From: a virus
IMG/VR virus record: IMGVR_UViG_3300024336_000018
Span: 1-41,110 of that record
Length of the DNA: 41,110 bases
Reading direction: 5' to 3' (one strand)
The position numbers were made by a program, and so were the translations under genes. The notes below the pieces were generated by a model. It worked only from the letters and a program-made list of their open reading frames with translations, had not been told where the DNA came from and searched no databases. Below, piece after piece: positions 1-40,753 of the stretch; the first letter of the stretch is position 1; each line of letters opens with the position of its first letter.

Positions 1-145
1 TTTTGCAAGATTTTCCAAAGTATTTAATAATTTATACACGATAAATCATAATATTCAAACTATTAATACAATTGCTATTATTAATGCTATTTCCATTGTT
101 CTAAATTTTTATACAACTAACAATATTCTTCCCTAGTATATCAGT
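1..145. repeat. left copy of terminal overlap (circular genome junction)
   Basis: Positions 20-145 are identical to 40985-41110 (126 bp), and 1-19 match 40966-40984 with three mismatches. This is the signature of a circular or terminally redundant genome assembled past its own start. The copy holds the first 32 codons of the 98-residue membrane protein (start at 94-96, minus strand) and the last codons of the terminase. The three mismatches fall in that coding frame as two synonymous changes and one Leu/Ile change. Confidence 0.9.
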
Positions 146-1790
146 CTAACAGGTTTTCTGTTTGCTGTTTTTCTTCATTTCATACTTTCAATTGTAATAT
201 ATCTTTATTTCTCAAACTTTCAAGTCTTTCATCTGATAATTCATATTTTTCATCATATTCTAGAAGATTTGGTTCTACTAATATTCAATGATATCATATC
301 ATATCTGCCATTAGTAAATCATCATGATTTGGAGCTATGGCATTAGGTCTATTATTTTTATCATAAACATATGTAAGGATTTCTGAGTATAGGTCTGCAG
401 TTATATTTATGGCTCATTTATATAAAGCTCATCTATATTGTCTTATCAATAAATCTTTACTTTTTTGTGTAGTTCTGAATCAATATTTAAATATTTGATT
501 ATCTTCTCATACCATTTTATCATTTCTTCTTTCTACGAGCATTCTTTCATGGAACCATGAATATTTTTTACATTCGTTTATAAAAGCTAGTCACACATTA
601 TTTTCAGGTAGAACATTTCATACATATTCTCATCCTAAGTCTTTATAGTTAAATAGCCAATCTAATTTTTTAGCTAGCATTTCTTCTCATACTTTTGCTT
701 TATATGTAGCTACGATATTTCATTCGGTATTTCTAACTGATATAGCTGAGAAATCCCCTTTAACTCATCATTCTGCCATATCAACTGCGAATATTAGTTT
801 ATCTTGAGCTCTTTCATATATTTTCCATCATTCTATTTCTTTTATAGGTTTAACTATTCTATATTTTAATGCAGGATCGAATACTGTTACTCATGAAGAC
901 ACGAATGCTCATTCGATTGTAGTAGGATTTTCTTGTTCGAATAATTTATGTCAATTTTCTCATAAAACTTCTGCATCATGGATTTTTGTTCTTCTCCATC
1001 TTAATTGTTCTAGAGTTAGATCATAATTTTCTTTAAGTTGAGCTTCTTCGGTATCTAAAAGCATTTCTTCTCACTCCTTTAACCTTTCTACATTTCTTTC
1101 TTCAATATACCATGGATAAAATAATAGTTTATAAGATCCATTACCATTTTTTGCTTGCATACAGGCATTATAGAATACATTTCATATACCATTTGCTGTA
1201 GTTTCTATTGTTATTCTAGTTTTTCTGAATTGGTCAATAGCCAATTTTAATTTAACTTGTTTTTCTGATTCTATAAATGCAAATTCTGATATATGTAATC
1301 TTGTTGGAGTTTGTCAACGCACATCAAGTCAGATTTTTAGTCTATTGTTTAATATTTTTCAGGATTGAGTTTTTGCGAATGCTAGTTCGTTTGCATTATC
1401 TGTAGATGGGATAGGCAATAATCCTTTAAATTCTGCAGGGATATGTTCATATACGAATCTAGCTTTTTGGAAGAATACATCTAGTAGGTCTTGTCTATGT
1501 GTAATAAATACATTATTAATATTGGTTCATCCGAATAATACTTCATCGAGCATTACTATAATAAATAAAGTCGAAACTCAACCTTGTCTATATTTCAGGA
1601 TTATATCCCTGAAGTTACTTCTACCATTCAATATTGCTCTTTGGATTGTATTTGGTCTAAATAATACAGTTTCTCAGTTTTCATCGACTATATAATACAG
1701 ATTTTCTAATCTCCAAGCGAAATTACTGAATAATTTTCATATAATCTCTTGTTGTTTTGGATCTACTTTATTTATTTCAGAGTTGCTCAT
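117..1790 (-). CDS. terL: terminase large subunit (557 aa)
   Basis: DNA-packaging motor: an N-terminal ATPase plus a C-terminal RNase H-like nuclease that cuts concatemers at the portal. A phage Walker A-like motif 'KYRQGGVST' lies at residues 66-74 and a Walker B-like strand 'LHISEF' at about 165-170. The nuclease part shows 'FAVDMAEGG' near residue 333 and a late acidic 'HDDLLMADMIG' near 490. Length is normal for the family. More than 20 in-frame UGA codons must be read as Gly. The start ATG overlaps the end of the VRR-NUC gene by 23 bp, and in the circular genome it is followed by the small membrane protein and portal. The family call is firm; the packaging strategy (headful or cos) cannot be read from this. 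Confidence 0.93.
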
Positions 1791-3632: not shown

Positions 3633-3639
3633 CGTGTGT

Positions 3640-4292: not shown

Positions 4293-4298
4293 GTTGGC

Positions 4299-4340: not shown

Positions 4341-4362
4341 TCTTAGTTCTTTATTATTGCTT

Positions 4363-4578: not shown

Positions 4579-4579
4579 G

Positions 4580-4619: not shown

Positions 4620-4642
4620 TTTTAGTTCCTTATTTATTATTT

Positions 4643-4909: not shown

Positions 4910-4910
4910 T

Positions 4911-4951: not shown

Positions 4952-4975
4952 ATTTATTATTCTAATATTATTATT

Positions 4976-5191
4976 ATGGGAAATATGTCTTATTGTAGGT
5001 ATGAAAATACGCTTGGTGATTTGGAGGATTGCTATGACGCTTTGTATGATGACCTTATGATGGCTCAGACTTCTAAGGATGCAGGTGATGAGATTGATAT
5101 GAGTCCTGAAGAGCTTTGTGCTATGAAGGAGTTGGTTGCTATGTGTTCAGAGATTGCTCGTCAATTTGATATCCAGGTTGGGAATTTATAG
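4976..5191 (+). CDS. conserved small phage protein of the 'MSYCR(F/Y)ENT' type (71 aa)
   Basis: The N-terminus 'MSYCRYENTLGDLEDCYDAL', then 'MSPEELCAMKELVAMCSEIA', matches a small helical protein pattern I recall from many phages and mobile elements, of unknown function. Conserved Cys, Arg, Glu-Asn-Thr and the Leu-x-x-Cys-Tyr spacing are visible. ATG 4976 gives Met-Gly-Asn before MSYC; ATG 4985 is an alternative start. It has no UGA codon, so it could be read in a standard-code host, which fits recent acquisition. Confidence 0.72.
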   Translation: MGNMSYCRYENTLGDLEDCYDALYDDLMMAQTSKDAGDEIDMSPEELCAMKELVAMCSEIARQFDIQVGNL

Positions 5192-5192
5192 G

Positions 5193-5234
5193 TAGCTTGG
5201 GACGATCAAGATTTGGTCGTTCCTGTGGTGCTTA
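5193..5234 (+). ncRNA. cassette-junction stem-loop element, copy 4
   Basis: AGCTTGG starts 2 nt after the TAG of the upstream gene. The stem pairs 5199-5207 with 5215-5223 (9 of 9, two G-U) around AAGATTT. GTGGTGCTTA ends 17 nt before the ATG at 5252. This is the best-paired copy. Confidence 0.72.
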
Positions 5235-5251
5235 GTTTAGTTCTTTAATAT

Positions 5252-5578
5252 ATGCGTATGCTTAAGAATATGTTGCCTGGTTATAAGGGTGATAATGTTA
5301 TTTATAATGAGTTTGATGGAGATATGTTTTGAACCATTTTACTTGCTTATGAAACGGAGGATGTAGAGCCTGTTGGAGATGAGCCTGGAGTTTATGGTAC
5401 TACTATGTTTATTGTGAAGTTTGATGATGGAATAGAGCTTGTGGATTCTTACTGGTGTAAGGAATTATGAGATTGCTGGTTGCATTCTGATGACCTAGAA
5501 ATGGTTGCTGATATGATTGGTGAAGATATTGATTCTACAGAGGATATGGTTGCTGATATGGGATATCAAATAGTTTAG
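5252..5578 (+). CDS. hypothetical acidic protein (108 aa)
   Basis: The centre reads 'GTTMFIVKFDDGIELVDSYWC', a beta-like strand pair, with an acidic, helical C-terminus ('LEMVADMIGEDIDSTEDMV'). It is rich in Asp, Glu and Met, with a likely small beta domain of unknown family. Two UGA-Gly codons lie at residues 27 and 73. It sits between element copy 4 and the diverged copy 5. Confidence 0.6.
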
Positions 5579-5597
5579 TTGCTAGTGCCTATCATTT

Positions 5598-5664
5598 GCT
5601 TGGTGGGTACGATGGAGCTATACTCCTGGGTATGTTTGGTCGTGGGGTTTGAAAGAAGTGCTTA
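5598..5664 (+). ncRNA. diverged, longer junction element, copy 5
   Basis: Bounded by the same ends, GCTTGG (5598-5603) and GTGCTTA (5658-5664), but the inside is expanded and contains a GGAG-CTATA-CTCC hairpin (about 5614-5626). It lies in the intergenic gap before the zinc-finger gene, 43 nt from its ATG. Membership in the family rests on the ends and position only. Confidence 0.45.
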
Positions 5665-5707
5665 CAATCGATTTAAACGGCCTGTTTAATTTGTTAATTT
5701 GGTTATT

Positions 5708-5908
5708 ATGGTTAATAATGAGTTAGAAGCGAGAGATACTCGTTTATGTTTGAAATGTGGGAGTGCTATGGATGAGGGATTTGTAATTGATAATGAGACT
5801 TATTGCTGTGAGACTTGTTTTCCAATAACTGAGGAAAAATACAATCAGTTGCACGATGAGAATCCTGAAGAATATTATTGGACTCAGTGGGAGGATATTT
5901 ATTATTAA
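5708..5908 (+). CDS. small zinc-finger phage protein (66 aa)
   Basis: Two Cys pairs, 'CLKCG' and 'CCETC', flank 'GFVIDNETY', and the C-terminus is 'EEYYWTQWEDIYY'. This arrangement (CxxC - 'EGYV' - YC-C - YWTEWE) is common in small phage proteins of unknown function, thought to bind one zinc. ATG 5708 is chosen; an upstream TTG would add three residues. No UGA codons. Confidence 0.72.
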   Translation: MVNNELEARDTRLCLKCGSAMDEGFVIDNETYCCETCFPITEEKYNQLHDENPEEYYWTQWEDIYY

Positions 5909-5919
5909 TCTATATTATT

Positions 5920-6045
5920 ATGGAATTTGAGCTTAGTTGTGAAGAAGTTGGTGAGATTCATATCTCGTGTGATGAGGGTGTCCAGGATGCATTGGTTGAG
6001 TTTTTAGAGCAGGAGCAGGATATTGCTGTTGTTGGTAGTTATTAA
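5920..6045 (+). CDS. hypothetical acidic micro-protein (41 aa)
   Basis: A short acidic ORF with Cys at positions 7 and 17 and no UGA codon. Its ATG lies 11 bp after the previous stop, behind a TATTATT stretch like that of its neighbours. Spacing and codon use support translation; function unknown. Confidence 0.5.
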   Translation: MEFELSCEEVGEIHISCDEGVQDALVEFLEQEQDIAVVGSY

Positions 6046-6054
6046 TATATTATT

Positions 6055-6156
6055 ATGAAGATGTATGAGAGAATATTGTTGTGTGCTTGGGTGATTGTTT
6101 TAATTGGAGTGTATATTGGGTTCTTTAGTTTACTTGATAAAATATGGATATGTTAG
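6055..6156 (+). CDS. single-span membrane micro-protein (33 aa)
   Basis: One hydrophobic span (residues 7-26, 'LLCAWVIVLIGVYIGFFSLL') with a charged N-terminus. The ATG is 9 bp after the previous stop, and the gene overlaps the next one by 13 bp. It could be a small membrane modulator; no family. Confidence 0.5.
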   Translation: MKMYERILLCAWVIVLIGVYIGFFSLLDKIWIC

Positions 6157-6230
6157 AGTTTGAAGATTATATAGTTATTGTATGTTCAATATGTGGGATT
6201 ATTAGTTATTTATTTTTTATCTTTATGTAA
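6144..6230 (+). CDS. membrane micro-protein (28 aa)
   Basis: A very short ORF whose second half is hydrophobic ('IVIVCSICGIISYLFFIF'). It overlaps the preceding membrane gene by 13 bp and ends 1 bp before the next ATG. That packing is the main reason to believe it. Confidence 0.4.
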   Translation: MDMLEFEDYIVIVCSICGIISYLFFIFM

Positions 6231-6231
6231 T

Positions 6232-6390
6232 ATGAAAATGACTTTATGAAATGTGGATTTTGATATTGAATATAATAAAGAGTGTAATTGTAATGTTGCA
6301 CGTATAGTGGGTGAGGTTCCAAGTGATGAGAAATTGAGTATGGCATGTGAAGAGATGGAGGAGAAATTTAAGGTTCCTGTGGATATGTAG
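6232..6390 (+). CDS. hypothetical small protein (52 aa)
   Basis: Contains 'NKECNCNVARIVGEVPSDEKL' with a close Cys pair and a helical acidic C-terminus. One UGA-Gly codon lies at residue 6. It abuts the preceding micro-gene. No recognised family. Confidence 0.5.
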
Positions 6391-6402
6391 ATTGCTATTG
6401 CT

Positions 6403-6418
6403 CTCCTAGTTTTAGGAG
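6403..6418 (+). other. intergenic hairpin
   Basis: CTCCTA-GTTT-TAGGAG, a perfect 6-bp stem without a T-run. It lies between the 52-aa gene and the 107-aa gene. It may be a pause or processing site; too weak to call a terminator. Confidence 0.35.
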
Positions 6419-6463
6419 GGTAATATGGAGTTTATACTCTGTTTAATTTTTAACTTATTTATT

Positions 6464-6787
6464 ATGAATAAGATTACAATAGAACTTCTAGATGAGGTTG
6501 AGCCTGGTTTTATATTAGCAGGTGGTTCTTTTAGGGATAATGGTGGTACGAATATTATGAATACAGGTAATAAGTTAAGGTGGGTGGCGATTCGTGGTGG
6601 GATAAATGATTTTGCTATTTACTTTGAGAATATTTGGAGTAATGATGTTGAGTCTATGCTTGTATATCCTAAATTAGGGGACTGGTCTGATGATCAAATT
6701 AAAATGTATGGAGATAAACTTCCTAAATATATGGTGCGTGAGTTGGTTGATATAGACGATAAGGCGTTATCTAGGTATAGAAGCTAG
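6464..6787 (+). CDS. hypothetical protein (107 aa)
   Basis: Last gene of the rightward array. It begins 'MNKITIELLDEVEPGFILAGG' and has beta-like strands ('LRWVAIRGGINDFAIYFEN') and a helical C-terminus. No UGA codons; Gly is GGT/GGG. ATG 6464 is preferred over ATG 6425 because it follows the same T/A-rich leader (TTATTTATTATG) as the other genes here. No family is recognised. Confidence 0.6.
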   Translation: MNKITIELLDEVEPGFILAGGSFRDNGGTNIMNTGNKLRWVAIRGGINDFAIYFENIWSNDVESMLVYPKLGDWSDDQIKMYGDKLPKYMVRELVDIDDKALSRYRS

Positions 6788-6831
6788 GTAGTACGTATCC
6801 AAGAAATGTTTTAAAGCTCTTACAAGCGATG

Positions 6832-6867
6832 AAAAAAGACCAGGTTTAGTTTAACTTGGTCTTTTTT
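6832..6867. terminator. bidirectional intrinsic terminator at a convergent junction
   Basis: AAAAAAGACCAGGTT pairs with AACTTGGTCTTTTTT around a short loop, giving an A-run on one side and a T-run on the other, so it works from both strands. It separates the rightward small-gene array from the leftward 6.85-12.2 kb block. The TAA of the leftward 85-aa gene (6851-6853) lies inside the hairpin. Confidence 0.85.
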
Positions 6868-7108
6868 GGTAGAAAGTTATCAGGATATAGTTTCAATTCT
6901 TTTTTACGTATACAAATATGCATGACTCATATAATAATTTATATACAGGTTCAGGATGGTCAGGGTGGTGAGATTTTTCTTTTCTAGGTCTTATCTTCTT
7001 TTTTTTCACGAGCTTAATAGCTTGTTCAAATGTTTCGATTACTTCTTTTCTATCATTAGCTCTTTCATCTAGTCTTTCGTTAAAGTGTTTTAGGTGGATT
7101 CTTTTCAT
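6851..7108 (-). CDS. small basic protein, DUF4258/BrnT-like (85 aa)
   Basis: An N-terminal basic helix 'HLKHFNERLDERANDRKEV' is followed by 'YKLLYESCIFVYVKKNGNYILITFYQ', two beta strands of the kind seen in DUF4258 and BrnT-like RNase folds. A UGA-Gly codon lies in the C-terminal strand pair. The stop falls within the terminator hairpin. Phages carry such folds outside toxin-antitoxin pairs too, and no antitoxin partner is seen beside it. The family call is by pattern only. Confidence 0.55.
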
Positions 7109-7144: not shown

Positions 7145-7969
7145 TTAGTCTTCTTGGGTGATGATCTTGTCAGGATTTTGATTCACATTTTGTTTATCAG
7201 AGTTAGCAATTATTTTATCATATATATCATGTACTCAGACTGCTACGTTTTCGGTTGATTTTCACTCGATCAATCTATTTTGTTTGAATGCTGTATCTAG
7301 GATATCTGATAATGCTTTCAGGTCACCGAAATGCTTTACGTTTATCTTATCTAGATTTGTTAGTATGATATTTTTTCATGTTGCTAATAGTTTTCAGTTG
7401 ATATTATATAGTTCATTAATTCAATCTACTTTGGGTAGTCATCATTCACTAACTGCTTTATTTACTGCATCTACATGTCTTCTTCATCTTTCAGACAATC
7501 TCCATTTTTCTGATTCAGTTATGTCAGGATTACTTATTTCTGCTAGTATTAAATTAGCTTTTTGCATTTCTTCTTTTAGTTTATCATTCTTTTCTTTTTG
7601 TGTTCATCTTCTTTTTTTACCTGATACTGATTCGAATAAAGCCTGGTTATCTGCTTTTACTTTTTCAGGATCTATTCCAACTGCTACCATAAAATCTCTA
7701 AATAGAGTATTATCTTTTATGATCATGGAAAATTGTTTTTTCCAATTCAATAGGTTTGTTCTAGAGACTGATGCTTTTGGATCGATTTCTAGGATATTAT
7801 TCTTTGCTAATTGTAGTGATTTATAGCTTTTTTTTCTGAATTCTCTTAGTGCTAGGAATAATGCAGAATTCTTTTTATATAGATATATTGCATTTTTATA
7901 TTGTTCTTCCTTTTTTTGGTTTTGCAATAGTTTAGCTTTAGAATTATATGGCTTAGTATTTCATGGCAT
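7145..7969 (-). CDS. possible small terminase or HTH DNA-binding protein (274 aa)
   Basis: The N-terminal half is basic and helical with 'ASVSRTNLLNWKKQF', a recognition-helix-like motif. The C-terminal part has 'FGDLKALSDILDTAFKQN' followed by 'GKSTEN', a pattern recalled from the ends of some phage small-terminase or terminase-associated proteins ('QRL..GQSTEN'). The missing small terminase makes this the best candidate, although it is far from terL. The gene needs many UGA-Gly codons. The ATG (Met-Pro-Gly) lies 22 bp from the tRNA. Confidence 0.5.
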
Positions 7970-7991
7970 AAATTTATAGTTAATTTTAATA

Positions 7992-8067
7992 TGGTCAGAG
8001 AGGCAGGACTCGAACCTGCAACTGCTCGAGTCCAAGACGAGACATCTACCAATTGATTTACTCTCTG
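7992..8067 (-). tRNA. tRNA-Pro (anticodon UGG), CCA encoded
   Basis: On the minus strand the cloverleaf folds as follows: 7-bp acceptor CAGAGAG/CTCTCTG, U8, A14, GG at 18-19, T-arm GCAGG-TTCGAGT-CCTGC, discriminator A73 and an encoded CCA. The anticodon loop CTTGGAC gives UGG. C1-G72, A73 and G35-G36 are proline identity features. The anticodon stem has a T-T mismatch at 31-39. It is the only tRNA found, and it is not the UCA-glycine tRNA needed to read UGA. Confidence 0.88.
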
Positions 8068-14049: not shown

Positions 14050-14502
14050 ATGTGAGTTTGATTAAAAATAGCCAAATATAAGGCTATTGTGAAAGATTTA
14101 GATTGAAAGAGCTACTCTCCATACCCAATAACTGAGGAAGAGTATGCTAAATTAAAACTTGCTAGAGCTTGAAATAAGCCATTTGTATGGATCCATGACA
14201 TTGAGGATAATAAGGTTCGTGAGATTAATCCACGTGAAATTAAGCAATTTATTCCTATTACCAATGCATCTGAGAGTTCATATTCTGTTTCTAGACGTTG
14301 GATATGTAATTTCTGAAGACGTCATCCATTACATATGCAATGAGCTTGTGAATGTGCGAAAGAGCAGTTCATTAGTTCTTATACATACTGGGATAGGCTG
14401 AGAGATATGGGATTTAAAATAAATTATGCGAGTGATATTACTCAGGAAATGATTGATAGATATGATTCGGAGTTTTGAAAAAGGGATTTAAATGAAACCT
14501 AA
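14050..14502 (+). CDS. hypothetical zinc-binding protein (150 aa)
   Basis: Begins Met-Gly-Val-Gly (two UGA). It contains 'WICNFGRRHPLHMQGACECAKEQF', a Cys/His cluster (C-x-H-x-H-C-x-C) that could bind zinc, then 'SYTYWDRLRDMGFKINYAS'. It lies 17 bp after the replisome organizer, where phages often place helicase loaders or ssDNA-binding proteins, but no P-loop or OB fold is visible. Function unknown. Confidence 0.6.
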
Positions 14503-17350: not shown

Positions 17351-17366
17351 TTAATCTCTCTTTTTT
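17335..17366. terminator. perfect bidirectional terminator at a convergent junction
   Basis: A 32-bp perfect palindrome: AAAAAAGAGAGATTAA followed by its complement, with A-run and T-run on opposite sides. It ends both the rightward early block and the leftward 24-kb late operon, and holds the stop codons of both converging genes (17348-17350 and 17351-17353). Confidence 0.9.
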
Positions 17367-20300
17367 CTTGTTGTAGTTCATCTGCTTAAGCTTTTCACAG
17401 GAGGAGCTTTTTTCTTATCTTCTCTTATATATCATTTATAGATTCTATCGAATTCTGCAGTTCATCATACTCACATAACTACTCATAATCATTTTATGAT
17501 CCTAGTCCAATCTTGTCTTTCAATTCAATCACTTATATCTTTCCATCATGTAAGTACATTTATACTAGAATATCTAGCTCATCAGTAAAGTATTCATGCG
17601 TATGGGACAAATCATATTAACTGTCATATAGCTTTTCATGTTGGAGAACTATAGTCTTGTTGATTATGAACAAGTCTTCATCCTTTTCTCAGTAGTTCTT
17701 CGTATAATGCAAATAGTAATCATGCGAACATATAGGCCATCATATGTCATCATACTTTACCATATTTCTTTTGGGCTTTTCTTCATCATCCATATCTAAG
17801 CATAGCAGAATGATTCAATACAAAGTTTTGAAATACAGTTGCAACTGATGAAGATTTTCTTTCATTTTTAAGTACGAACATAGCTTTTCATTCAAAATGA
17901 GTATGTCACATAGCTTTTTTAATAATAGTATCTGCATTATATACTGCGTCAGATTCATTTAAACCTTGTTTTAAGCTTCTTTTATATTCTGAGTACCATA
18001 GAACTCTTGAAAGTACAGCATCTGCTTTTTGGATACCATAGAATCAATATTTGTTCCATTTCTCCATTATTCATTTATCGAATTTATCAGTTGTATTTCA
18101 GAATAGATTTCTATATTCTCTATTTCTTACAGTTCATGATTTTTCTGAAACCATATCCCATATTTCCTTTTTCCCTACAACTGCTTTTACTATATCTTTA
18201 TATGCTCCTAAATCTACATTTCCTCATATTGCTACTCATTCAAGGATAGCTGAAGTTTGAAGAGCCATAGTCGTTGGATTAAACCCTAATACAGCTGATT
18301 GGAAGTTTCTTACTCATTGTGACACTATTCTGTCAAATCACGTTTGAACTCATAAAACTCATTGTCTTGCAATTACGTCAAGATAGTCTTTCATGAATTT
18401 ATATCATAAATCTCATAACTTATCTTTTCACCAGGTATTAACTATTTGATTCAATTGTTTAATAGGTTTCTGCATATTAGTATAATAACTAACATTAGAT
18501 ACATGAGTTTTGAATATTTTATCTGACATAAGTTCAGGAACTACTTCAAGTCCTGTAGCTTCTTTTGTAAATCATTGTTCTGTTTTAGTCTTTCTGAATA
18601 AATTACTTCAGTTATCTATGGTATTTGGATCTATTGTACTAGCAAATTTATCTTGATTACTAGCCCAATCCATTTGTATAGGGAAATATTCATCCATAAG
18701 AGTAATCATTTCATTATCTACAAGTATTTTAGTTTCTTGCATTTGTTTACCTAAGTCTTTGAAAACTGATTGCATATAATCATACATTTCCTTTTCTTCT
18801 TTTGTAAGATATGTATCACTTGCTTGTTCTGTTAAAGTATCTGAAAATGTAGTAGGATCTTCTCAGGCTTTTTTCATCCTAGCTATTAATTTAATCTTAC
18901 CTTTTCAATCACTTCTTCTAGATAATCAATGGAATGTTATTTTTTTCCATCATTCTTTTGTTATTTTTAATTCTTTAGATAATTTATCGAATTCTAATGC
19001 AATAGCTTCCATATAATCCCTATGTTTATTTATAGGAGTTTCTATGAAATTATAAGCCATTCTAGATAAGTTTAATTCTTCATCTAATAACCATTCCATA
19101 GGTGTAGCATCTAGTAAAGCGTCTTTAGTTCTAATCTTAGCTTTTATACCTAATTCTGCTATTCTACTCTCTTTTTTAATAGTTTCAGAAGCTTTTAATG
19201 GTTTAGTTGATTCTATTTTAGTTAATCCTGGTTCTGCTTTTACTCTTTCTTGTTCTATTTTTTGATTAAATTCTTGATCCTTAAATTCTCTATATTGCTT
19301 ACCTACTTTTTTATAATATTTAACTGTATCTAATAATGTATTTAACTCATCTATTGTTAGATTATAAATACTTTGTTTTCTAGCTTCTTCTATTTGATTA
19401 TAAAATTTTTCATCCTTTAGATATTTTTCAAATATTTCTAGTTCTTTAGCTGTAAACTCTTGTCATGTCATCACATTATCTACTGCTTGAACTTCTTTAC
19501 TTCTTTTTTCAGGAACTTTTTTAAGTGTATACTCTTTATTAAACCAATCAAAGAATGCTTTTTTACTCTCTACGTCTATTGTAGATTGTTTTCTAAGCTT
19601 ATCTACTTCGTTTCTTACTTCTTTAGCTTTAGCTTGTTTATTTACCCATAATCTATTGATTTTATCTATAAGCTTTATAACATCAGAACCTCTAACTTTA
19701 TTTTCTTTAAGCCATTTTTTAGCTTCTCTTATTATAGCTTGTTTATCTTTTCATGAAACAACTGTATCTAAACTTGATTCTAGATTATCAAAGGCTTCTT
19801 TACCTTTAAATATTTCATCTTGGATTTTAGTTAAATCTCAAAACTTCTTTGTCATTAAATCCATGAAGTGTTGTTCAAATTTAGCTATATGTTTAGATAG
19901 TTGTTTAGATATTTTTGGAAGTAATCATTCTTGTAATGATTTCATAATATCTTTTGTAAAACTATCTTTTAATATTTTATAATAACTTAATCCTACATCT
20001 TTTGGTTTAACAGCAATTTCATTTGTAGTCACAAGACTTGTTGGAGTAGTTCATTCTTTATAACCTATAATATCTTTACTCATTCTTCATTCTAACATAG
20101 TGTTTAATGTTTCGAAGTATGGTCAGTTTATATCATTAGTAAACATCATTATAGAGTCTTTCATAGGCTCAAATAATTGATTTATTTTACCTGGATCTGC
20201 ATATTCAGCTAGAGCTCATTTTATTTCTGCAGGTTGATTCTTTATATATACTCCTGTAGTTCTGATATATGGAGGATCCAAATATGATATAGTTTCTTTA

Positions 20301-23300
20301 TTATTCAAAGTCTGTCACATATCTGTGATAAATTCTTTACCATCCTGGTTATATATATTGATTTTATCTCAATATTCTTCAAATACTTTTTGATATTTAG
20401 TTAATCAATCTATCATTTTATTTCTTACATTCACTACATTTTGGAATCATGAACTTGCTGATACTACTTTTTGTCAACTATCTCATCTTTGTCTAAAATG
20501 CCTAGACATACTAACTAGCATTGCACTTTCTACATCCCCTGGTTTAATATTTATATCATCATATTTATCAAGTACAGTTGATATTTTTTTACTAATTTCA
20601 GGATATCTATTTTCAAAGACTGTTCTATCATTTAGAACAAGCTCGGTTGCTGTATCTAGCTCATTTCATTCTAAAACTTTTCAATTCTTTTTAGCTTCTT
20701 CTGATAAATGTTCTTTTAACCACTCTCTGAATGTTGTAGTAGTTTCTCATTTTATGGCAAGCTTAGTATCAGGTCTTTCTTCAAAGAATTGTTTAGCATA
20801 TTGTGGGTAGAATGATAATTCAGCTAACTCTTTAAATTCTTTAGATCATACTTCTACTCCATACTCATCCATTATTTCTTTAATTTCAGGTATATGTGCT
20901 AATTCAACTCATATTTCTCATATGATTTTATCGTATGCTGAATCTACTAATCCTATAACATTTACTTTTCATTCTTTAATAGCTTTTACAACTTCATATT
21001 TTTCCTTATCAAAATGATTTATGTGTAATTGTTCAATACCTGATTCTATCATTTCTTTTGCGAAATAATAAACTGTACCAGCTCATCAAAAAGGCTCTAC
21101 ATATGTTTTAGCTCCTTGATTGGTAGCTTTCTTTATCATAGGAAGTAATATATTTTTGAATGTCATAGATTTATTACCCATAAGAGAAAATGGAAGCTTT
21201 ACTCTAGCTCATTCAGGAGCATTAACTATATGCATTCTAGCTCATATTTCTTTTAAACTCTTACTTAATTGTCATATATTAATTTTGAATTCTTCAGCTT
21301 TTTTAAATAACTTATCATACCCTAACATATCTAGAATATTTAATCTTTGTTGATTATTAATTCTACCTGTAGGAGCTTTAGCAACTTCTTTTGTTTTTCA
21401 TTTTATTGAGTCATAAAAGAATTTAGATTCTTCTTTATTGATCATATTTTTTTGAACTGCTAAATCGGTTGCTTGTTTAACTATATCAATTCAATGTTTA
21501 TTCAATAATTTAGTTATATCATTTACATTTGGCTGTTTAGATATTTTAGCAATTTCAGTAGCTAATTTATTGTCTGCTCTTTCTTTTTTTATCTTTTCAG
21601 AAATCGGTGTTTTTTTCTCATTTTTTTTCGTGTCTATTTTTTGACCCTTTTCTTGGCTTAAATTAGCCTTTATTTTTTCTGAAGTTTTTCCGTAAACTTT
21701 TACGGGATTTTTAGTTGACTTTCTTGATCTAGTTTTTTCTATTTTTGGGAAATGAGTTCATACTCATAAATTTGGAAAACTTTCTTTAAAATTCTTAAAT
21801 GTATTCAATAATTTTTCTGAAAATAAAGTTCATTTCATAGCTCACATTTCATTAAGCTCTTTCATTATTTCAGTTTTTCTTTGATTTTGTTCTGTATCTT
21901 TGAAATCTTTAGGATCTAATCCTAGTTCTTCCATGTCAGCTTTCGTTTGAGTATCTGCAAACTTACCTGTTTCATCTTTAGCAACTTGTATGGTTTCTAA
22001 TTCTGTAAGCAATTTAAATGCTTTTGATTTTTCTTTATTAGCAAATATTTCCCCTTTTCTAATTTTTCATATATCATCTATCCTACTTTCTCTCTCCATA
22101 TGATCTTTAGCAAGATTCATTAATTCATCAGGTTCTACTTGTGAAGTAATATTATTATCTGACAATATTTTATCTTTATTTATAGATGCATATTTTGCTA
22201 CTGCTTCATTTATAAACACACTATAAACTTCTTTATAATCTCCTGACTTAAATCTTTCTACTGTTTTTCTAGCTTCAGCTTCTCATTTACTTTTTAGGTA
22301 TTTTTCAAGAGATATTCAAGAAAATCACATATTTTCTCCTCATTGTCTTCATTCTTTATTTTGCAAGGCGTGTTGTATTTCATGTATCAATGTTTCATGC
22401 TGTTGTTCATCAGTTTCATTCTTATTTAATTCTATTTCTATTTTATGAATATTTCATGTTTCTTTATGTACAGTAGCTATAAATCTTCATCTACTTCTCA
22501 TATCTCCTCTATATGCTACCTCAACATTTTTTAGTCATGGATAAATTTTATATAATTCATCATGTTTTAATATATGTCAAAGTTTAGAAGTTAAATCATT
22601 ATCGAATTCGTCAACTTCAGGTGGTTTTGTATATAAAGATTTATCATCCTGGATTTCAAATAACACTTCTCAATCCTCATCTTTAAAACTTTTAGATCAA
22701 TTTTTTGGATCTTTTATTGTTATTAAATTTATTTTTCATCATGAAAACTCTGCAAATTTCTCTACATAAGGCTCTGCTTTTTCTAGAAAATAATCCTTTA
22801 ATCTAACATAAGATTTTTTTAATTGTTGTCAGTATTCTTGTGATATATCTCCATTAATAATTGAAGCATCAATATCTGTTATATAATTATCATCTCCTTT
22901 TTTAGCTCTTTCTATTAATTGTTTTTTCTGTTCTTTTAATACATCTTTAATCATTTCTGATCATCAAAAATAATCCGAAACAACTCAGGCTGTTCAGAAT
23001 ACTCATCAAGTTACTCATCATAAAGCAAACGCTTCTGCTGTAGTAGGTTTATTTAAATATTCATCTATATTTACCTCTCATTTTCAACTAGCTATACTTA
23101 ATGCATTTTCAGAAGCATATCATTGATAAACTTCTTCTAATCATTCAACTACAACATTCCCTGGGATTTTAGCTGTATTTAATAAATGTTTATAAATTCA
23201 TTGAGTTTTTATAGGAGCAAATGTTGATATAAATTGTCATGCATCAGTTACTGCTAACTTCATATTATCTTGGAATACATCCATTCAAGCTTCAGAAGCC

Positions 23301-24163
23301 TTTTCTTCAGATAATCATTGTTTTAATGCATCGTTATAAGTTGATCAAGCTTCTACATAACTTTCAAATGTTCTAGATGATAATCATGCAAAAACTCATG
23401 ATGTAACAATAGTAGCTGTAGTTCATAATCACACAACTCATGCTCATATAGTTCATACTCAGGCTCATATTCAAGCAGTTTCAGCTCCTGCTATCATGAA
23501 AGGTAATGATTGTGGGAATTTTTGAGTCCAAAACCTAGGATCTCACATTTGTTCTATATCGAATTCTTGTGTTATTGGATGTTGAAAATCAACTTCCCTC
23601 ATCCTTTTCTCTCCTGTTTCAGTAAAACTTTTTCAAATTTCTTCAGCTCATCCAAATCTTAAAGCTCATCATACTCATGACATAACTTGTCATACTCATA
23701 AATCTAATGCTTGTCATATTTCTCAAAGAGCTCATTCTCATCATCTCGCTTCTAATTGCATTTTTCTTTGCAAATCTACATCGAATTCTTCAGGTTTATA
23801 TTCTCTTAATTGTGGTCACTCTTTTTCTTGAGTATCTATATATTGATTTCTTTTTTCAATCATTGTATTTAATAATGATTGATCCTTTTTTCATAATCAT
23901 TCCATATAATTAACTCAATCCTCACTATAACTATATTCAGCCATTAATGTATTGGATCTCTTTCTATCTCTTGTAGCTTGGGCTTGTTGCATTTCTTCAG
24001 GAGTAGCTCACATTAAGTCTGTCGCTCTACTTATTAATGTTTTAGTTCACATAGGAGCTATTGTACTTAATACTGCTGAGCCTAAAGAAGCCCCAGGATT
24101 ATTAATATCACTAGGACTTTGTTGTTCTTCAATTACTCTTTTTTGTCTTACTTGTATTGCCAT
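17351..24163 (-). CDS. giant polyvalent protein with metallopeptidase, DNA methylase and LPD-type domains (2,270 aa)
   Basis: One code-25 frame spans 6,813 bp. In order: coiled and Gly-rich N-terminus with a hydrophobic stretch near 250-300; a zinc peptidase-like motif 'LIHEIQHALQ' near 592-601; a basic linker near 815-860; an adenine-methylase core with 'YVEPFGGAGTVYYFAKEM' near 1020 and 'SYLDPPYIRTTG' near 1292; long helical region; a C-terminal module with 'EYFPIQMDW' and hydrophobic Gly-rich segments near 2100-2240. This matches phage 'polyvalent' proteins, thought to enter the cell with the DNA and protect it (known for the class; inferred here). UGA is the usual Gly codon throughout. 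It is the last gene of the late operon. Confidence 0.88.
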
Positions 24164-31590: not shown

Positions 31591-33030
31591 TTATAAATTA
31601 GCTTCTTCTATTTGAGGCTGTATAAGTATTTTATTTGTATCATTAGCTATTCATACTTTATTTTTGATAGTTCAAGCTGTTAGAGAAAGTAATCAAGCAG
31701 TATCTGATAAATAGTATACAGATCAAGGAGTTAATCATGTGACATTACCAGACAATCAACCAAATGCTACTCATACATTTGCTCACGCTAATACTGAAGC
31801 TTGTGCAAGTCCTACAAACCTAGCTGTTGCAGGCAATGTAGCAGAGGCTTTATATACCTTTGTTTTATCTTCGCTACCATCTATTAATTCAATAATAACA
31901 TTTTTATCATTTGTAGTAGTAATCCCCCAAACATTAGGATCTGTTCAAACATATCAATTTCATCCAGCATATAAACTTGTAGCTGTATTTGACCATATAC
32001 TATGATGAGTTCAATCTCTAGTTCAATTATTTGTAATTTTAATATAATAGGTTCAAGCAGTTAATAACTCATTACTAAAATTAAATGTTTGAAAAGTTCC
32101 CCAATTTACAGTTGATAATGAAGATGCAACTATTGTATTAGAAGCAGTAGCTACTAAAGTAATTCATAAATCACTATAAATTTCACAATTTAAGTTTCAA
32201 ACTGGACTGTTAACTTTTTTTAATCTAGCTTGTATACTTGCAATATTAGAATTATTTGTAACTGTAAAAGATTGGCATTGAAAAGCACCACCAGCAAGAG
32301 TCCATCATATTCTTTGAGTTTGACCTCAATCTTCATTAATTGAAATAATATCTTCTATCAAAGCTCAAAACCTTAAAACATCTCAAGCAGTTACATCTAC
32401 TCAAGCTACTAGGTCTGTATTTGTACTTGCAACATCTACTATTACTGCTCATGTTTGTCAATTTACACTTAATACTTGATCTGTATAATCTGATTTTATC
32501 CAATTTGAAGCATAAATAGTTGTTGATGCATTATCTAGAATAGCAATTATTCTATCATTAACATTAAAATCTATTCAGTCTACAGTTCATGCTACAGATA
32601 CAATATAACTATATCAAGCTTGTGCAGTTCATCATCCTGGGAATGTTCATACTGAGGCATCCCAAACTCCTTTTAAAACTACAGCACTATCTAGATTATT
32701 TACTTTAGTTTCTATATCATCTAGGTCTACTGCCTGAGTAACTGAGATAAATCATACTTTTGTTTTTTCTGCATCAACAAAAGCATTTGTATCTGCATTA
32801 GATTCGTATGATGTTTTAATGGCTCAAGCTGTAAAAGCTGAACTATTTAGTTTTAGATTTAATGCATCTTGTAAATCTGTTTGATTTGATAATGTTCATG
32901 TAAGACTACCCCAAGGTAATTGTACCAATGAGGCTAGTAGTCTTATAGCTATATCTCAGTTTGAATCTAGAACAAATTTTAACTTTTCTAAATCATCTCT
33001 ACTTAGATTTTCAAATTCTTCTTGTGTCAT
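31591..33030 (-). CDS. tail fibre-like structural protein (479 aa)
   Basis: Short N-terminal helix ('FENLSRDDLEKLKFVLDSNG') followed by long beta-rich, Thr/Asn/Gly-rich sequence, including repeats of 'T-D-L-x-D' type and 'NNLDSAVVLKGVWDASVGTF'. The region 'AGYSYIVSVAGTVDGIDFNV' resembles fibre repeats. A likely receptor-binding or baseplate-associated fibre. No catalytic motif is seen. Encoded upstream of DUF1353. Confidence 0.65.
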
Positions 33031-34194: not shown

Positions 34195-34377
34195 TTATTT
34201 AGTAATTAAAGTATTTGTTTTAGTATAATCTTTATTAATCTTTTTACAATATTTTATATACGTCTTTGTAATTTCTATTAATTCTTTTTCGTGCTGTTTG
34301 CTTATCTTAATCTCATTTTTTCTATTATGTTCTTCTATTCTCTTAATACGCTCTTTGTTAGATATTCTTTTAGGCAT
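34195..34377 (-). CDS. small basic protein (60 aa)
   Basis: Lys/Arg/Ile-rich helical ORF ('MPKRISNKERIKRIEEHNRK', 'YIKYCKKINKDYTKTN'). It has no glycine at all, and starts 1 bp after the homing-endonuclease stop. It could bind nucleic acid. No family. Confidence 0.5.
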   Translation of the reverse strand: MPKRISNKERIKRIEEHNRKNEIKISKQHEKELIEITKTYIKYCKKINKDYTKTNTLITK

Positions 34378-34378
34378 T

Positions 34379-34912
34379 TTAGGTTTGGTTATATTTCCAT
34401 ATAAATCATCAAGTTGTTTTTCTTTTTCATCTACATACTTTAGATATTTCAGATGAATATATATTTAAATCCCTATAAACATTTGACATACTTTCCCAAG
34501 TCTTTATGAATTTTCAAGTTTTAGTATATTGGTCTACCTTTATACTACAATTACTTAATTTTCAAGTTTTTCATTTATTAGGTCATTTATATCATAAAAC
34601 ATCATATTTATGTCTTTCATTTTCACTTCTTGTTACCCATTCTAAGTTTTTTATCCTGTTATCTCATCTTACTCAGTTTTTATGATTACACTCTAATTTA
34701 GGAGTTTTTGCAAAATATTGTAAAACTAATCTATGTACTTTAAATTGTTTTATTTTATCTCATTTAGATAAGTTAACCTTAAGATATCATCATCTTTCTT
34801 CGCTAGCCACTAATATTTTAACCTTAGTATCTTTAAAACTTTTTACTTTTCCTAAATTACTTATTTGATACTTTCATTCGTATCAATCTATATCTTTCCA
34901 TATTTCTTGCAT
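34379..34912 (-). CDS. NUMOD4-HNH-NUMOD1 homing endonuclease (177 aa)
   Basis: The N-terminal NUMOD4 reads 'EIWKDIDGYEGKYQISNLGK'. The HNH_3 core has 'HRLVLQYFAKTP', 'CNHKNGVRGDNRIKNLEWVT'. NUMOD1 follows: 'VDQYTKTGKFIKTWESM' and 'SEISKVCRGKRKTTGGFIWK'. This is a full-length free-standing homing endonuclease of the kind phages carry between structural genes. UGA gives Gly at 'IDGYEGKY' and 'NGVRGDN'. It sits just after the major capsid gene, behind a structured leader. Confidence 0.9.
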
Positions 34913-35047: not shown

Positions 35048-35076
35048 AAAACTGCCTAGGGCTAGCTAGCTGTTTT
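35048..35076 (-). terminator. hairpin at the end of the major capsid gene
   Basis: On the minus strand AAAAC-A-GC-TAG pairs with CTA-G-GC-A-GTTTT, giving an imperfect stem that contains the capsid stop codon and ends in four T. It is probably a partial terminator or 3'-stabilising hairpin that would lower expression of the downstream homing endonuclease. Confidence 0.45.
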
Positions 35077-36279
35077 ATTGGTAAGCTTACCATTAGCTCT
35101 CGGATTTGTGCAGACCAAATTACCATAGAATTTCATTGTAGTTTGAAATGCAGGAATTCTAGCACCATTTGTATCATAAACGTTAGTCATGATAGAACCT
35201 GAACCATCAGCTAAATATTGAAGTTTATTCAATTCAGCTAGTGAGAATGTACTTGTATCTAATACAAATAATGTTCCAGCAGGACAGTCGTAATCAGAAA
35301 CCATAGGAATTGGTTGTGATCCAACTGAAACTTCTAGACCTTTAAATCATCCTTTTAGATCCACAGTATTCATGAATCTTTTTTGAGAAGCTAATAGGCT
35401 TGAGTATTTGTTTTGTAGAGTTACAGTAGTCATGATTAAATCAGGATCACCGAATTCTGCAACATCAGCAACTAAGTCTATGATTTGAGCTTCAGTTAAT
35501 ACTGCAGAAGTAGCATCAACGTAAGAATTTGTCCAATCATTAGTAGCTCTAACTATCCCTTGAAAACTTGAACCTGCGTCCACTGTTTCATTTGATACAA
35601 GATTACTAAGACCATCTAATTCTTCATATTGAGAATCTGTAGTATTGTAAGCACCTTTTGTGATAATTACATCGTTATCTGCAGTAGTAACAGCTCCTGT
35701 AAATGTAACAGAAGTAGCAGAGTTTATAGTAGCAACAGTAACTTCATCAGCAGTACCAGCTTCAATTTCAGCTGTAGTACCAACTTCAAGAACTTGTCCA
35801 ACTCTTAAGAATCTAGTAGAATCAACAGTTTGAGTAGCAGTAGCAACACCAGCTCCATCTATAAGAGTTAGAGTACCTTTACCATCTCAAAATAATTGTC
35901 TGTTTAAAGATTTTTTGAATTCCATCTCTAAATCTCTACCTAATTTTTTAACTAAACTTACTAACGAACCTGGTTTACCTTTTGCAGTTTGGATAGCAGA
36001 ATCCCATATAATATGAGAACCATAACCATACTTAGCAGAAACTACCATTTGTTGATCAGTAGATTTACCTGTAGTAATAGCACCTGTAGCACCTGTAAAA
36101 CCTACTCATGAGTGACCTGAAGTCAATGCAGTGATATAGATTTTATCGTTGTTAAATGTGACACCATCCATATTCTTTTTAAAGTATTTTAATAATACAG
36201 TTTTATTGAATAGTTGGTCTTGAATTGTTGGCAATATTAATTTTTCTAACAAAGCCGATATTTGAGCAATTGTGATCAT
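35062..36279 (-). CDS. major capsid protein (405 aa)
   Basis: Probably HK97-fold. 'GYGSHIIWDSAIQTAKGKPG' and 'LVKKLGRDLEMEFKKSLNRQLFGDGKG' are the expected N-terminal-arm and spine-helix elements; the C-terminal part is beta-rich. Codon choice is unlike the rest of the late operon: Gly is mainly GGT, only three UGA-Gly codons occur, and Ala/Thr are GCT/ACT, as expected for a very highly expressed gene. It follows the scaffold gene by 24 bp. Confidence 0.9.
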
Positions 36280-36303: not shown

Positions 36304-37122
36304 TTATGTTGTTTGCCCAATTGAATCTAAAATTTCTTTAGCAGATGCTTCAAAATCTTCATCCCCATTAGCGAAAGTCGGATTTCTTTTAGTAGGCTCA
36401 AAGTTGCCTTTGTTTCCTTTATCTACTTCAGTACCAGCTTTTTCATACTTTTTAGCATAAATTTCAGCTTGATACTTAAAATTATATAATTCAATTGGAT
36501 CTTTTGGTAGGAAGTTTTTTTCTTTTGAAAATTCTAACAATTCTTTAATATCGAATTTTGGTAATCAATCTTTTCAATCCATTTCAGCAGTTAATTCAGC
36601 AATTCTTTTAGAAAGACTTCATGTTTCTGCTTTATTAATAGTTTCTTGAAGTTCTTTTATCTGACTGTCTTTATCAGACATATCATCTTCCATATCTTCA
36701 AGTTTATCTTGTAATTTAGATAACTTAGTATCCATTCAAAGCTTTTGAAGGTTAGATTGTTCTTCTTTCTCATCATCTGACAAAGAGTTCACTCTATCTT
36801 CTTCAGTCTTAATTTTCTCTAATAATTTATCATATTTACTTTGGACTGCATTCTTTTTCTCAATTTCTTTATTAAGTCTAGAACGTGGAATTTTTAATTC
36901 ATCTTCCTTTGGAGTGTCTAGTTCTTTTCATGCTTCTTTTTTTACATCTTCTTTTGATGGTTCCTTAGCATTCGCACCTTTTACAGGTTCCTTAGTAGGT
37001 TCCTTTTCAGGATCTACGTTTGGCTCTTTTCACTCCAATTCGTTTAATATGTCTAATCATTTCTGATCCATATCAATAACTTCAGGTTCTGCTCCTGACT
37101 TTTCAGTATTTTCTTTTCCCAT
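36304..37122 (-). CDS. scaffolding protein (272 aa)
   Basis: Highly charged with a disordered Glu/Lys/Pro N-terminus (1-80), a central coiled coil (about 85-190) and a C-terminal part ending 'DFEASAKEILDSIGQTT'. Composition, size and position directly before the capsid gene are those of a capsid scaffold, which fills the procapsid and is then lost. No protease is encoded next to it. Confidence 0.82.
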
Positions 37123-37535: not shown

Positions 37536-38804
37536 TTAAATAGATTCTCAAAATTCTAAAGTAGCACTCATTAATGCATTTATAGCTTTTTTTTCTCCCA
37601 TTATTATAAGATAATCTCACGGATTAATAATAAAGTCTATTTTATCACTTGGGTTTCATAATACAAAAGGCATTAAATTCGATACAGGTCATCTTGTTAT
37701 AGTATCACATTTATTTATATCAACAACTACTGCTCATGACAAAGATACATCATGATACTGTAGAACACTATCATCATATCTATCAATTAAAGACAATCAC
37801 GTAAATGCTGAAGCATCTTCGGTTCTTAGAAATTGAAATCTAGAAGCATTATCTGTTCATAATATCATTCTTAATAGTCTTACATCTCTCCTATTTATAC
37901 CTGTTTTATGTATTAATTTATTATAAACTACTAATAATGCTACAGGAGGAGATTTACTTGAGACCGAAACATCATCAGCATTAACTATTCATGTATATGT
38001 TAATCACTCATTTTGTCATCATTCTGAATCTATATTAACACATCATACCCTTATTTCAACTTCTGTTCAATCAACATTCTCTGAAAGATACATAGATGGG
38101 AGAGCAGGATTTGCAATACTTACATAATCCAAAGTTCATAGATTTTTAATAGTATGAACAAGTCTTAAATTTATAAAAAAGAAGAAATCTCATACTCATC
38201 TCCATTGAAATTGAATATCAAACAATTCTCATTTTTCTAAATCTATATCCTGCATATCATCAGGTAGAGTTATTTCTTCTGTCTTAAATTCAACTCATAA
38301 ATTATATAATGAAGCATAAAGTTTTCATCATGATAATTTAAAGAATATTCACATATAAGGAGCTGATCATCAATTCATTACTCATAAACCCCACCATCTA
38401 ACTCCATTTTGTTTATCAGGCAACATTAATGCTGTTGAATATAAATGTCATCTATTAGGTTGATATCTAGGAGAATTTCTAGATTGCATAACTGAATAAT
38501 TTCAGGCAGTTGCACCAGATTTAATTACAGCAGTTCAATTTAAACTAATTATATTTACAGAACTATATGCTATTATTTCTACTCAATTTTCATATGTTCT
38601 CCATATTCTAAATGGAATTTCAGTAGTCCACATTCAATGAAATAGAGAATAGTCAAATGTCATTTTAGCTCATCCCCAAGCATTTGCTCATAAATCTGTT
38701 CTAACTAGATTTCAAGCATAAGGAACAACCCTAACTGCAGATATTCAGGTAGACAATCTTTTCAGTCTATCATATTCTAATTGATCTCTTATTTCAAGTG
38801 TCAT
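37536..38804 (-). CDS. virion structural protein, beta-rich (422 aa)
   Basis: Mostly beta strands with aromatic-rich blocks ('WTTEIPFRIWRTYENGVEII', 'NGVRWWGLGVMNGGSAPYMG', 'LFDIQFQWRGVGDFFFFINL'). Placed immediately after portal in the transcript. Could be a head fibre, decoration or tail protein with a jelly-roll or lectin-like fold. No named family. Over 20 UGA-Gly codons. Confidence 0.55.
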
Positions 38805-38806: not shown

Positions 38807-40753
38807 TTAAGCATTAGCAGGTAAAGATGGTATTAATTCTTCTTGTGGTGTTACTTGATTTTCAGGAGCAAACATTGCTTCATGTTGTTGCATATGTTGG
38901 ATAAGCAATTGACTTTGTGGTCATTCTCATATTTCTCATAACATAGCTCCATGTATAGCTAAATGTATCTCATGATTTTCAGCTTGTTGAGCTACTATAT
39001 TTGCTCATTCAAGTAATTTTTGATTTTCTAATTCTGCATGTTTAGCTTCAAGTCCTTCTTCTCAATCTTCTTGAGCTTCTTTCTCAGCTTGTTCAGCTTC
39101 ATATTGATTCATTATAACTTCAGTATTTCCAAGTTTATACGAGTCTATAATTAATTTATCAGGTATTGCTACTCATAGTCATCTTAATTCTACTAGGTCT
39201 GCTCTAGCTTGTAGGTCACTAAATGCAGAACCTGGGACAATTTCAACTTCTATATTTTTGATAGGTTTTATTTCTATGATATCATTTCATAGTTTTTGTC
39301 CTGAAGCTTCTTCTACTATTTTTTTAACTTCTGATCATACTATTCTTTCAGTTCATTCATCAGTATCTAGTTCTCTTAAATTATAAAATTTACTTCATAG
39401 GACTAATATTCTATAAGCCATTTCTTCCATGAAAGTTTTAAGATTATCTACTGGTTCAGATACATTGTTATTATCTGAAGCTTGTAGTTGTGCAATTGCA
39501 ACTCATGAAAGAGCTGAACCTGATAGCCTACCTGTTGATTCTGAGTGGATACCTCATAAATCTTCCATTAGTCTTTCAGTTTCATTCATATGGATATTAA
39601 CTTCTTGTGGAAGATTACCTGAATCCATTAATGTTGGTTTACTACCTGTATATTCTACAACTTGTCCATTTCTTCATTTAATAACAGAGAATTTTGAACC
39701 TTTAGATACCATATATCTACCTTTCGCAAATTTTTCTAACCAATCTGCTCTATTAGAATATCATTCATCCAAAGCTTTATTTAATTGGATTAGTGGATCA
39801 ATCCATGCAGGAGAATATAAAAGTCCTTTATTTCTTTCAGGTTGGTATGCTAATAATGGGAATTGGTCATCATCAGTCATTTCATCTCTTATAATTATTT
39901 GTCCTACTTTAGTGATAATTCTAACTTTTACTTTTTGATCAGGATTATTGATTTGGTCTTCTTCAGGAGAAATATTGTCTTCAATTTTTTTACTTCATTT
40001 GTCCTTTACGTTTTGCATAATATATAGTTCTTGTACTATTGCAGAACCATTTTCATCGATAGGTATTTTATAATCTTGTTTAAGTAATGAGTCTTTATAT
40101 TCGCTTTCAGCCATTCTAGTGTCAGCTTCAATATTTTTCACATCATCTTTAAAATCTCATTGATTATACAATGAGCTATTTTTAATATCATCGAGAGATT
40201 TTCTTATTGTTCTAATTATATATTTTCATACAAAAACAGGTCATTCTAATCTACCATCAGGAGAAGTATAAATATTGAAAGGATCTTCTATAAATATATC
40301 TATATCCTTTTTTCTATTATCATAACCAACAAAAGTCCATGCTAACGTTTTAGTTAATGAATGGGTTAATAAGTCTTTTAGTTTATCTTTCAGGTGGTCT
40401 TCTTTATATACTGCTTGCAATAATGCTCATGAAACCTTTTTTTCTTCAGGAGTTATTCTTTGAGTTCTTGAACTAGTTGGATGCCATCTTGGATCATTTT
40501 TCAGGATCATATTTCTAACTCATCTAACTATCTTTCTAACTTTTCAAATAGTATATTCACTATCTGATGTTTTAGGTAAAGTAGTTAATTGTTTAGTAGT
40601 TGTATCATAAACAACTCTATGATTTCATTCATAAAAGTTTTCATTCACGAAACTTCTAATTTCCCATGTGCTTTTATAATCTTTTGATTCTAATAAAAAG
40701 TCATCAAACTTACTTATTATATCTTTATATGAGTCCTGTTTTGTGCTATTCAT
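38807..40753 (-). CDS. portal protein (648 aa)
   Basis: An N-terminal helical region with 'WEIRSFVNENFYEGNH' and 'VRKIVRGVRNMILKNDPRWH', a central 'ALAWTFVGYDNRKKDIDIFI' and 'DPFNIYTSPDG', a clip/stem-like 'GIHSESTGRLSGSALSGVAI' and a glutamate/glutamine-rich helical C-terminus. These match podovirus-type portals (12-mer ring through which DNA passes). Gene order terminase, small membrane protein, portal, then scaffold and capsid supports it. Confidence 0.85.

Follow-up and report, generated by a model that had tools for sequence, protein, structure and literature searches.

The window analysed here, 41,110 bases of viral DNA with 28.9% G+C, is the complete IMG/VR record IMGVR_UViG_3300024336_000018 (the record may be a fragment of the virus), and it raises a question about a single gene: why is the major capsid protein (MCP) encoded almost without UGA, a codon that the neighbouring genes use freely for glycine? 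The long genes of the window could be read as open frames only with TGA as a sense codon. UGA was masked during the alignment of the MCP, portal and terminase large subunit (TerL) proteins of the window and its relatives, and where a masked TGA faced a non-TGA codon, this codon specified glycine in 176 of 348 cases, with serine next at 38. The glycine positions of its relatives place the phage under genetic code 25, in which UGA specifies glycine. We found no tRNA with the anticodon UCA in the phage record, where the sole tRNA gene found was a tRNA-Pro(UGG) (7992..8067, minus strand), and UGA is therefore presumably decoded by the tRNA-Gly(UCA) of the host. ARAGORN placed tRNAs with anticodon tca (labelled SeC under the bacterial code) in three host loci (G117, G030 and G125). 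Termination at UGA is unlikely, since release factor 2 is absent in code-25 bacteria according to the available text of PMC6851277.

The MCP gene lies on the minus strand at 35062..36279, an interval whose plus strand is full of stops, and follows the portal, structural and scaffold-like genes in the head-gene order. Its product matched PHROG 14242 (major head protein) with an E value of 6.3e-40 over residues 3-401 (profile positions 4-387 of 396), and was 28-29% identical to proteins annotated as major capsid in phages of Arthrobacter and Microbacterium. The initial annotation had described a capsid gene written mostly with GGT, with UGA only three times in 405 codons, and our recount agreed: the 36 glycines were encoded by 26 GGT, six GGA, one GGG, no GGC and three UGA. 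The UGA codons were those of Gly58 (36106..36108), Gly131 (35887..35889) and Gly311 (35347..35349), all on the minus strand, with coordinates computed from the codon numbers.

The free use of UGA that the initial annotation had ascribed to the neighbours was equally evident, all of the following genes being on the minus strand. UGA encoded 23 of 41 glycines in the portal protein (PHROG 156; 38807..40753), 33 of 39 in a virion structural protein (PHROG 1645; 37536..38804) and 135 of 182 in a giant protein of 2270 codons (17351..24163), and the fractions were 29/38 in TerL (PHROG 2; 117..1790) and 33/46 in a tail-fibre-like protein (PHROG 32345; 31591..33030). The gene between the structural gene and the MCP (36304..37122; UGA 7/15) had no PHROG match, and we call it scaffold-like from its position and conservation. 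Across 40 other ORFs of the window, after four of the 45 had been excluded by hand as doubtful (2744-3238, 3806-4285, 7145-8035 and 34195-34377), UGA accounted for 545 of 744 glycines, against 3 of 36 in the MCP (Fisher p = 2.2e-15); all 45 ORFs, the MCP included, gave 569/819. None of the 15 other ORFs with at least 200 amino acids and at least 10 glycines had a lower UGA fraction than the MCP.

A megablast search with 20 kb of the window against named phages gave no match. Three other lineages (L023, L062 and L199) shared the MCP of the window together with the portal, terminase and scaffold-like genes; two more sequences (L001 and L002) differ so little from the window that they do not count as independent. 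The MCP identity to the window was 86% for L023, 73% and 78% for the two pieces of L062, and 60% for L199. We observed that the UGA fraction of the MCP, compared with other ORFs of at least 200 amino acids, was 3/36 (0.08) against 0.70 in the window, 10/36 (0.28) against 0.61 in L023, 10/33 (0.30) against 0.87 in L062 and 27/43 (0.63) against 0.89 in L199. The MCP had the lowest UGA fraction in all four lineages of this family (CMH OR 0.12, p 1e-27).

The L062 gene (L062:14871-16009) is split into two ORFs of 281 and 80 codons by a frameshift, a sequencing error or an inserted element. L199 (G001:C107:1-15473) is a contig in a Gracilibacteria MAG, carrying the MCP, portal, terminase and scaffold-like genes, and this binning is a weak hint that the phage group of the window has a Gracilibacteria host. 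Members of a single HNH endonuclease family, 42% identical, were seen at 34379-34912 in the window and at L199:6663-7268(-); they follow the MCP in the former and lie between terminase and portal in the latter, a variable placement within the head module as in mobile homing-type genes, and both were UGA-rich (0.94). Near the tRNA-Pro gene, about 3.4 kb of the window (3600-7100) had a mostly higher G+C (0.29-0.47), a strong excess of G on the plus strand, internal near-repeats and no convincing ORF. Short pieces of it matched L023, L062 and L199 at 66-74%, and a comparison of the region with Rfam gave no match even at E 1. The plus strand of 6401-6800 folded better than its shuffles (z -5.2, pair-shuffle control), most other stretches of the region did not, and it is possibly a long noncoding RNA.

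The avoidance could also be followed in more distant capsid genes. A PF05065 search of 353 genomes of the bacterial class sampled below led to six code-25 prophage regions (L193 to L198), and the portal family PF04860 led to five more stretches, three of which had a recognisable capsid gene (L375, L377 and L378). The capsid assignment was firm for L193-L197 (PHROG 10) and near the cut-off for L375 and L198, and for L377 and L378 it came from PHROG 1623 ('virion structural protein') and the gene order. The other two stretches do not enter the count: L376 (G059), in which no capsid gene was recognised and one large ORF was an ATP-dependent protease, and L379 (G154), which does not resemble code 25. 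Set against the other ORFs, some of which may be host genes or spurious in prophage regions, the MCP was depleted in UGA in L198 (9/34, 0.26, against 0.88; p 2.5e-14), L193 (13/33, 0.39, against 0.73; p 2e-4) and all three portal-derived additions, that is L375 (6/29, 0.21, against 0.72; p 2e-6), L377 (2/31, 0.06, against 0.63; p 6e-9) and L378 (17/31, 0.55, against 0.84; p 4e-4). A predicted major tail protein of L377 (G173:C7:557001-574000; UGA 7/19) and an unnamed terminal ORF of L375 (G184:C76; 3/15) were UGA-poor as well, as expected for other high-copy virion proteins.

The expectation that every code-25 prophage MCP would be UGA-poor failed in four of the nine. We observed no significant depletion in L197 (10/28 against 0.47, p 0.39), L194 (19/28 against 0.72), L195 (21/29 against 0.71) or L196 (25/34 against 0.67). 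The last three MCPs were 85-92% identical to one another and 66-69% identical to that of L193, which is depleted. The EF-Tu of their hosts does avoid UGA (3/35 in G117, 2/35 in G030 and 2/35 in G118), and L194, L195 and L196 are perhaps weakly expressed or defective elements. With the window family counted, the MCP was significantly UGA-poor relative to its neighbours in nine of 13 code-25 phage and prophage capsid genes, so that the pattern described for the window extends to most, and not to all, of the phages in which the initial annotation had proposed to look for it. The capsids of L198 and L375 were 26% identical and those of L377 and L378 34%, each pair being a further group; UGA depletion is present in four MCP families. 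A scan of viral contigs with a terminase-like pattern containing TGA gave no convincing code-25 contig among the matches listed, of which L064 was borderline (0.021 TGA per codon), and wider scans with MCP and terminase alignments gained few new relatives.

We also evaluated the bacterial side. Eight contigs encoded the motif GHVDHGKT with both of its glycines written as UGA, by their titles five from Gracilibacteria, two from Patescibacteria and one from an uncultured bacterium. From the class reached through these contigs, 38 code-25 genomes were picked by hand, and 37 remained after one without a background was dropped; as the genomes are related, the counts below are not independent events. 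Genes of the ribosomal operon were identified with Pfam in G008 and with phmmer in the other genomes. Ribosomal proteins had a smaller share of UGA than the background in 30 of the 37 genomes, in 22 of them at p<0.01, and the Mantel-Haenszel OR was 0.49. The initial annotation had suggested host ribosomal proteins as a check, and they bear it out in most genomes; the relation was significantly reversed in G020 and G073 (the latter with four ribosomal proteins recovered), and nominally in G104 (p 0.018).

Avoidance was more uniform in EF-Tu, which had less UGA than the background in 30 of the 30 genomes first retrieved, a retrieval that favoured strong matches, and in 35 of 36 (one marginally) after the six missing genomes were added, with G194 outside the count. 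Nine of the first 30 had no UGA at all in the EF-Tu ORF (that of G018 being partial). Among the six added, G008, G093, G004 (partial) and G184 (a 68-codon piece) lay below the background, G005 equalled it within error (24/39 against 0.63), and G020 was higher (35/38 against 0.83, p 0.18). The ribosomal proteins of G020 reached 0.93 against the same background of 0.83. This genome (L368, L219 and L273), of about 0.7 Mb and code 25, thus has UGA as the dominant glycine codon even in EF-Tu, and the usual pattern is reversed in it.

Since EF-Tu is very conserved, we compared it with RuvB and GyrA, which we presume to be less expressed, at conserved glycines. The mean UGA fraction was 0.13 in EF-Tu and 0.41 in RuvB and GyrA, and EF-Tu was the lower in 28 of 29 genomes (Wilcoxon 3e-6), the sole exception being G073.

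Expression was approached through codon adaptation at amino acids other than glycine. The codon shift of the MCP tracked that of host EF-Tu (rho 0.63, p 7e-7) and of pooled host ribosomal proteins (rho 0.43); for 14 other window genes, the correlation with host EF-Tu was 0.49 in one and at most 0.28 in the others. The MCP ranked first of 23 window genes by non-glycine adaptation to host EF-Tu and ribosomal proteins. Over these 23 genes the UGA fraction fell as adaptation rose (rho -0.59, p 0.003; -0.53 without the MCP), which is the ranking against expected expression that the initial annotation had called for, with adaptation as the proxy; the lack of any such relation, which would have spoken against it, was not seen. 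With weights taken singly from four genomes of similar codon usage, rho was -0.57, -0.56, -0.42 and -0.25. The window was nearest in codon usage to G074, G042 and G059 among the 30 genomes compared, a proximity that does not identify the host.

Relative to other ORFs, the MCP shifted at isoleucine (ATC up, ATA down, p 1e-4), alanine (GCT up, p 0.02) and tyrosine (TAC up, p 0.02), and valine and asparagine leaned likewise without significance. With glycine removed, its overall codon usage was not an outlier by likelihood (z -0.8), so the non-glycine signal is directional but modest. The nine depleted MCPs ranked first or second in adaptation with pooled weights, although that of L198, first of 13 on these weights, was 8 of 13 on the weights of its own host. 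Of the non-depleted MCPs, L195 ranked 5 of 8 and L196 4 of 10, and L194 and L197 were first. The gene-by-gene relation expected in the background genes of the hosts was weak instead: 18 of the 28 genomes had a negative relation (p 0.18 by a sign test), and in G001 and G073 it was significantly positive.

Could the scarcity of UGA have arisen without a cost in translation? If glycines gained in AT-rich genomes tend to be encoded by UGA, proteins that evolve slowly, like the MCP and EF-Tu, would be UGA-poor simply by conservation, and the conserved glycines of GyrA and RuvB were indeed somewhat UGA-poorer than the variable ones. We therefore counted UGA at invariant columns, that is at glycines unchanged across the window, L023, L062 and L199. 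For MCP, portal and TerL respectively, the values were 3/31, 15/31 and 16/21 in the window, 8/31, 17/31 and 11/21 in L023, 3/21 (first MCP piece), 28/31 and 19/21 in L062, and 20/31, 30/31 and 20/21 in L199. The MCP had the smallest share of UGA in each lineage, by a wide margin in the window, L062 and L199 and by less in L023; its depletion is independent of site conservation. This comparison largely refutes conservation as the cause, the lower UGA of EF-Tu at conserved glycines also speaks against it, and we consider it very improbable. It is also highly improbable that the MCP was acquired only recently from a phage with the standard code and has yet to accumulate UGA. The nearest named relatives found outside the group are phages of actinobacteria, which we take to use the standard code, but their MCPs are only 25-29% identical, and the MCP has diverged jointly with its neighbours across the four code-25 lineages (identities of 60-86% for MCP, 63-77% for portal and 62-76% for TerL). 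Moreover, identical non-glycine residues of the MCP had identical codons at 0.52-0.65, against a saturation expectation of about 0.54 from phage-wide usage. A frozen ancestral bias would have decayed at this level, which indicates that the bias is maintained and not inherited unchanged; joint divergence and saturation together contradict the acquisition. Local base composition is scarcely credible as a cause: the G+C of the MCP gene is above the window mean (0.342 against 0.289), which might favour GGN codons, but its four-fold third positions are as AT-rich as elsewhere (G+C 0.05 against 0.08 in the rest), so that the required rise in G or C is absent. From four-fold-site composition, a UGA fraction of 0.89 was predicted for the MCP and one of 0.86 for the other phage genes, roughly since bases are assumed independent, and the observed fractions were 0.08 and 0.72, respectively. 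ORF 14050-14502, with a GC of 0.333, had UGA at 7 of 8 glycines. Finally, the MCP might avoid UGA in order to be made in a standard-code host too, and code-11-compatible phages of these bacteria are reported in the available text of PMC10746230. Three in-frame UGA codons nevertheless remain in the MCP, and the portal, structural, scaffold-like, terminase and tail-fibre-like genes hold 7 to 33 each, so that no virion would be made under the standard code; this contradicts a dual-code reading, to which we give hardly any credence.

A cost in accuracy, and not in speed or supply, is a serious alternative to a slow or scarce tRNA, and one that we hold possible at distinctly less than even odds. 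At low frequency UGA would be misread, for instance by tRNA-Trp or tRNA-Cys, and the errors would be costliest in abundant proteins that assemble. Conserved glycines had less UGA than variable ones in GyrA (CMH OR 0.67, p 6e-4) and RuvB (OR 0.68, p 0.04), both presumably moderately expressed host proteins, but this effect could stem from new glycines arising as UGA, and EF-Tu showed no such difference (OR 1.31, p 0.30). Among the capsid genes, the first piece of the L062 MCP had UGA at 3/21 invariant and 6/6 variable glycines; there was no effect in the window (3/31 and 0/5) or in L199 (20/31 and 7/12). Proteomics of a BD1-5 bacterium, as given in the available text of PMC4032931, yielded 40 peptides with glycine at UGA and single peptides with Trp, Ala, Lys and Asp, but single misincorporation peptides are near the noise level.

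The reading that we favour, with a probability of about 85%, is that UGA accumulates in ordinary genes through AT-biased mutation and is cleared from the most expressed ones by translational selection. Mutation towards AT would push the glycine codons of ordinary genes to UGA and would mainly set the background level, and genes with very abundant products would be selected for the GGN codons that are decoded better, which in the phage means mainly GGU. Capsid protein is needed in hundreds of copies per particle, and nearly all UGA would in this way have been removed from its gene. In most of the code-25 hosts sampled, EF-Tu would be under the same kind of selection, and ribosomal proteins to a lesser degree. 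The initial annotation had held that the most expressed gene avoids UGA, and the direction stands, with expression here taken from protein identity and codon adaptation. It had further attributed the avoidance to slow decoding of UGA or a scarce UCA tRNA. The link to expression, by proxy, agrees with this; the specific cause is not singled out, as misreading fits equally. The avoidance would act through translation, most likely because tRNA-Gly(UCA) is less efficient or in shorter supply, so that UGA is read more slowly than GGU; misreading of UGA may be a second cost.

Ordinary translational selection shapes the codon usage of phages and hosts, and a capsid gene is adapted to the codons that the host prefers; codon deoptimisation of the capsid gene has reportedly been studied in T7. 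What differs here is the codon that is chiefly avoided, a reassigned stop codon. For this there are counterparts in eukaryotes, cited from the available text of each paper. In Blastocrithidia (UAR = Glu, UGA = Trp), highly expressed genes avoid in-frame reassigned stop codons (PMC12153298). As in our data, these codons are rarer in abundant and cytosolic ribosomal proteins and fall with codon adaptation, from which the authors infer a translational burden. That system is a eukaryotic nuclear code with three reassigned codons, altered release factors and a tRNA-Trp with a 4-bp stem (PMC12153298), whereas ours is a bacterial code (UGA = Gly) together with its phages. In a rhizarian, the reassigned codon is likewise depleted in highly expressed genes and scarce in ribosomal protein genes, which was taken as less efficient decoding; this too is a eukaryote, and the available text of PMC5304391 holds no viral counterpart. 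The code-25 phages of Gracilibacteria and Absconditabacteria have dense in-frame TGA and share the code of their hosts, as here, but the idea put forward for them in the available text of PMC10746230 is the opposite one, an abundant alternative tRNA with dense TGA as codon optimisation; neither 'capsid' nor 'highly expressed' appears in the main text of that paper. Our literature searches gave no report of reassigned-codon avoidance for code-25 bacteria or their phages, an SR1 UGA paper and a 2022 phage recoding paper, both possibly relevant, lying outside their scope. The effect is of a known kind, from protists, and apparently new for bacterial code 25 and its phages.

These results are sequence evidence that a bacterial stop-codon reassignment can stay a translational handicap, and they point against dense TGA in code-25 phages as codon optimisation, as proposed in the available text of PMC10746230. 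It also tends to be the highly expressed code-25 genes that can best be read with the standard code, a point that bears on annotation and gene transfer. A broader reading, whose odds we put just short of even, is that code 25 is costly and incompletely optimised in most Gracilibacteria: AT mutation would maintain UGA, selection would keep the top-expressed genes of host and phage near the standard code, and lineages like G020 would have lost the cost, with UGA preferred even in EF-Tu. With lineages whose EF-Tu shuns UGA set beside one that prefers it, the path of a reassigned codon from tolerated to optimal becomes testable and, if the broader reading is true, the UGA level of a capsid gene would report how well the host of a phage decodes UGA.
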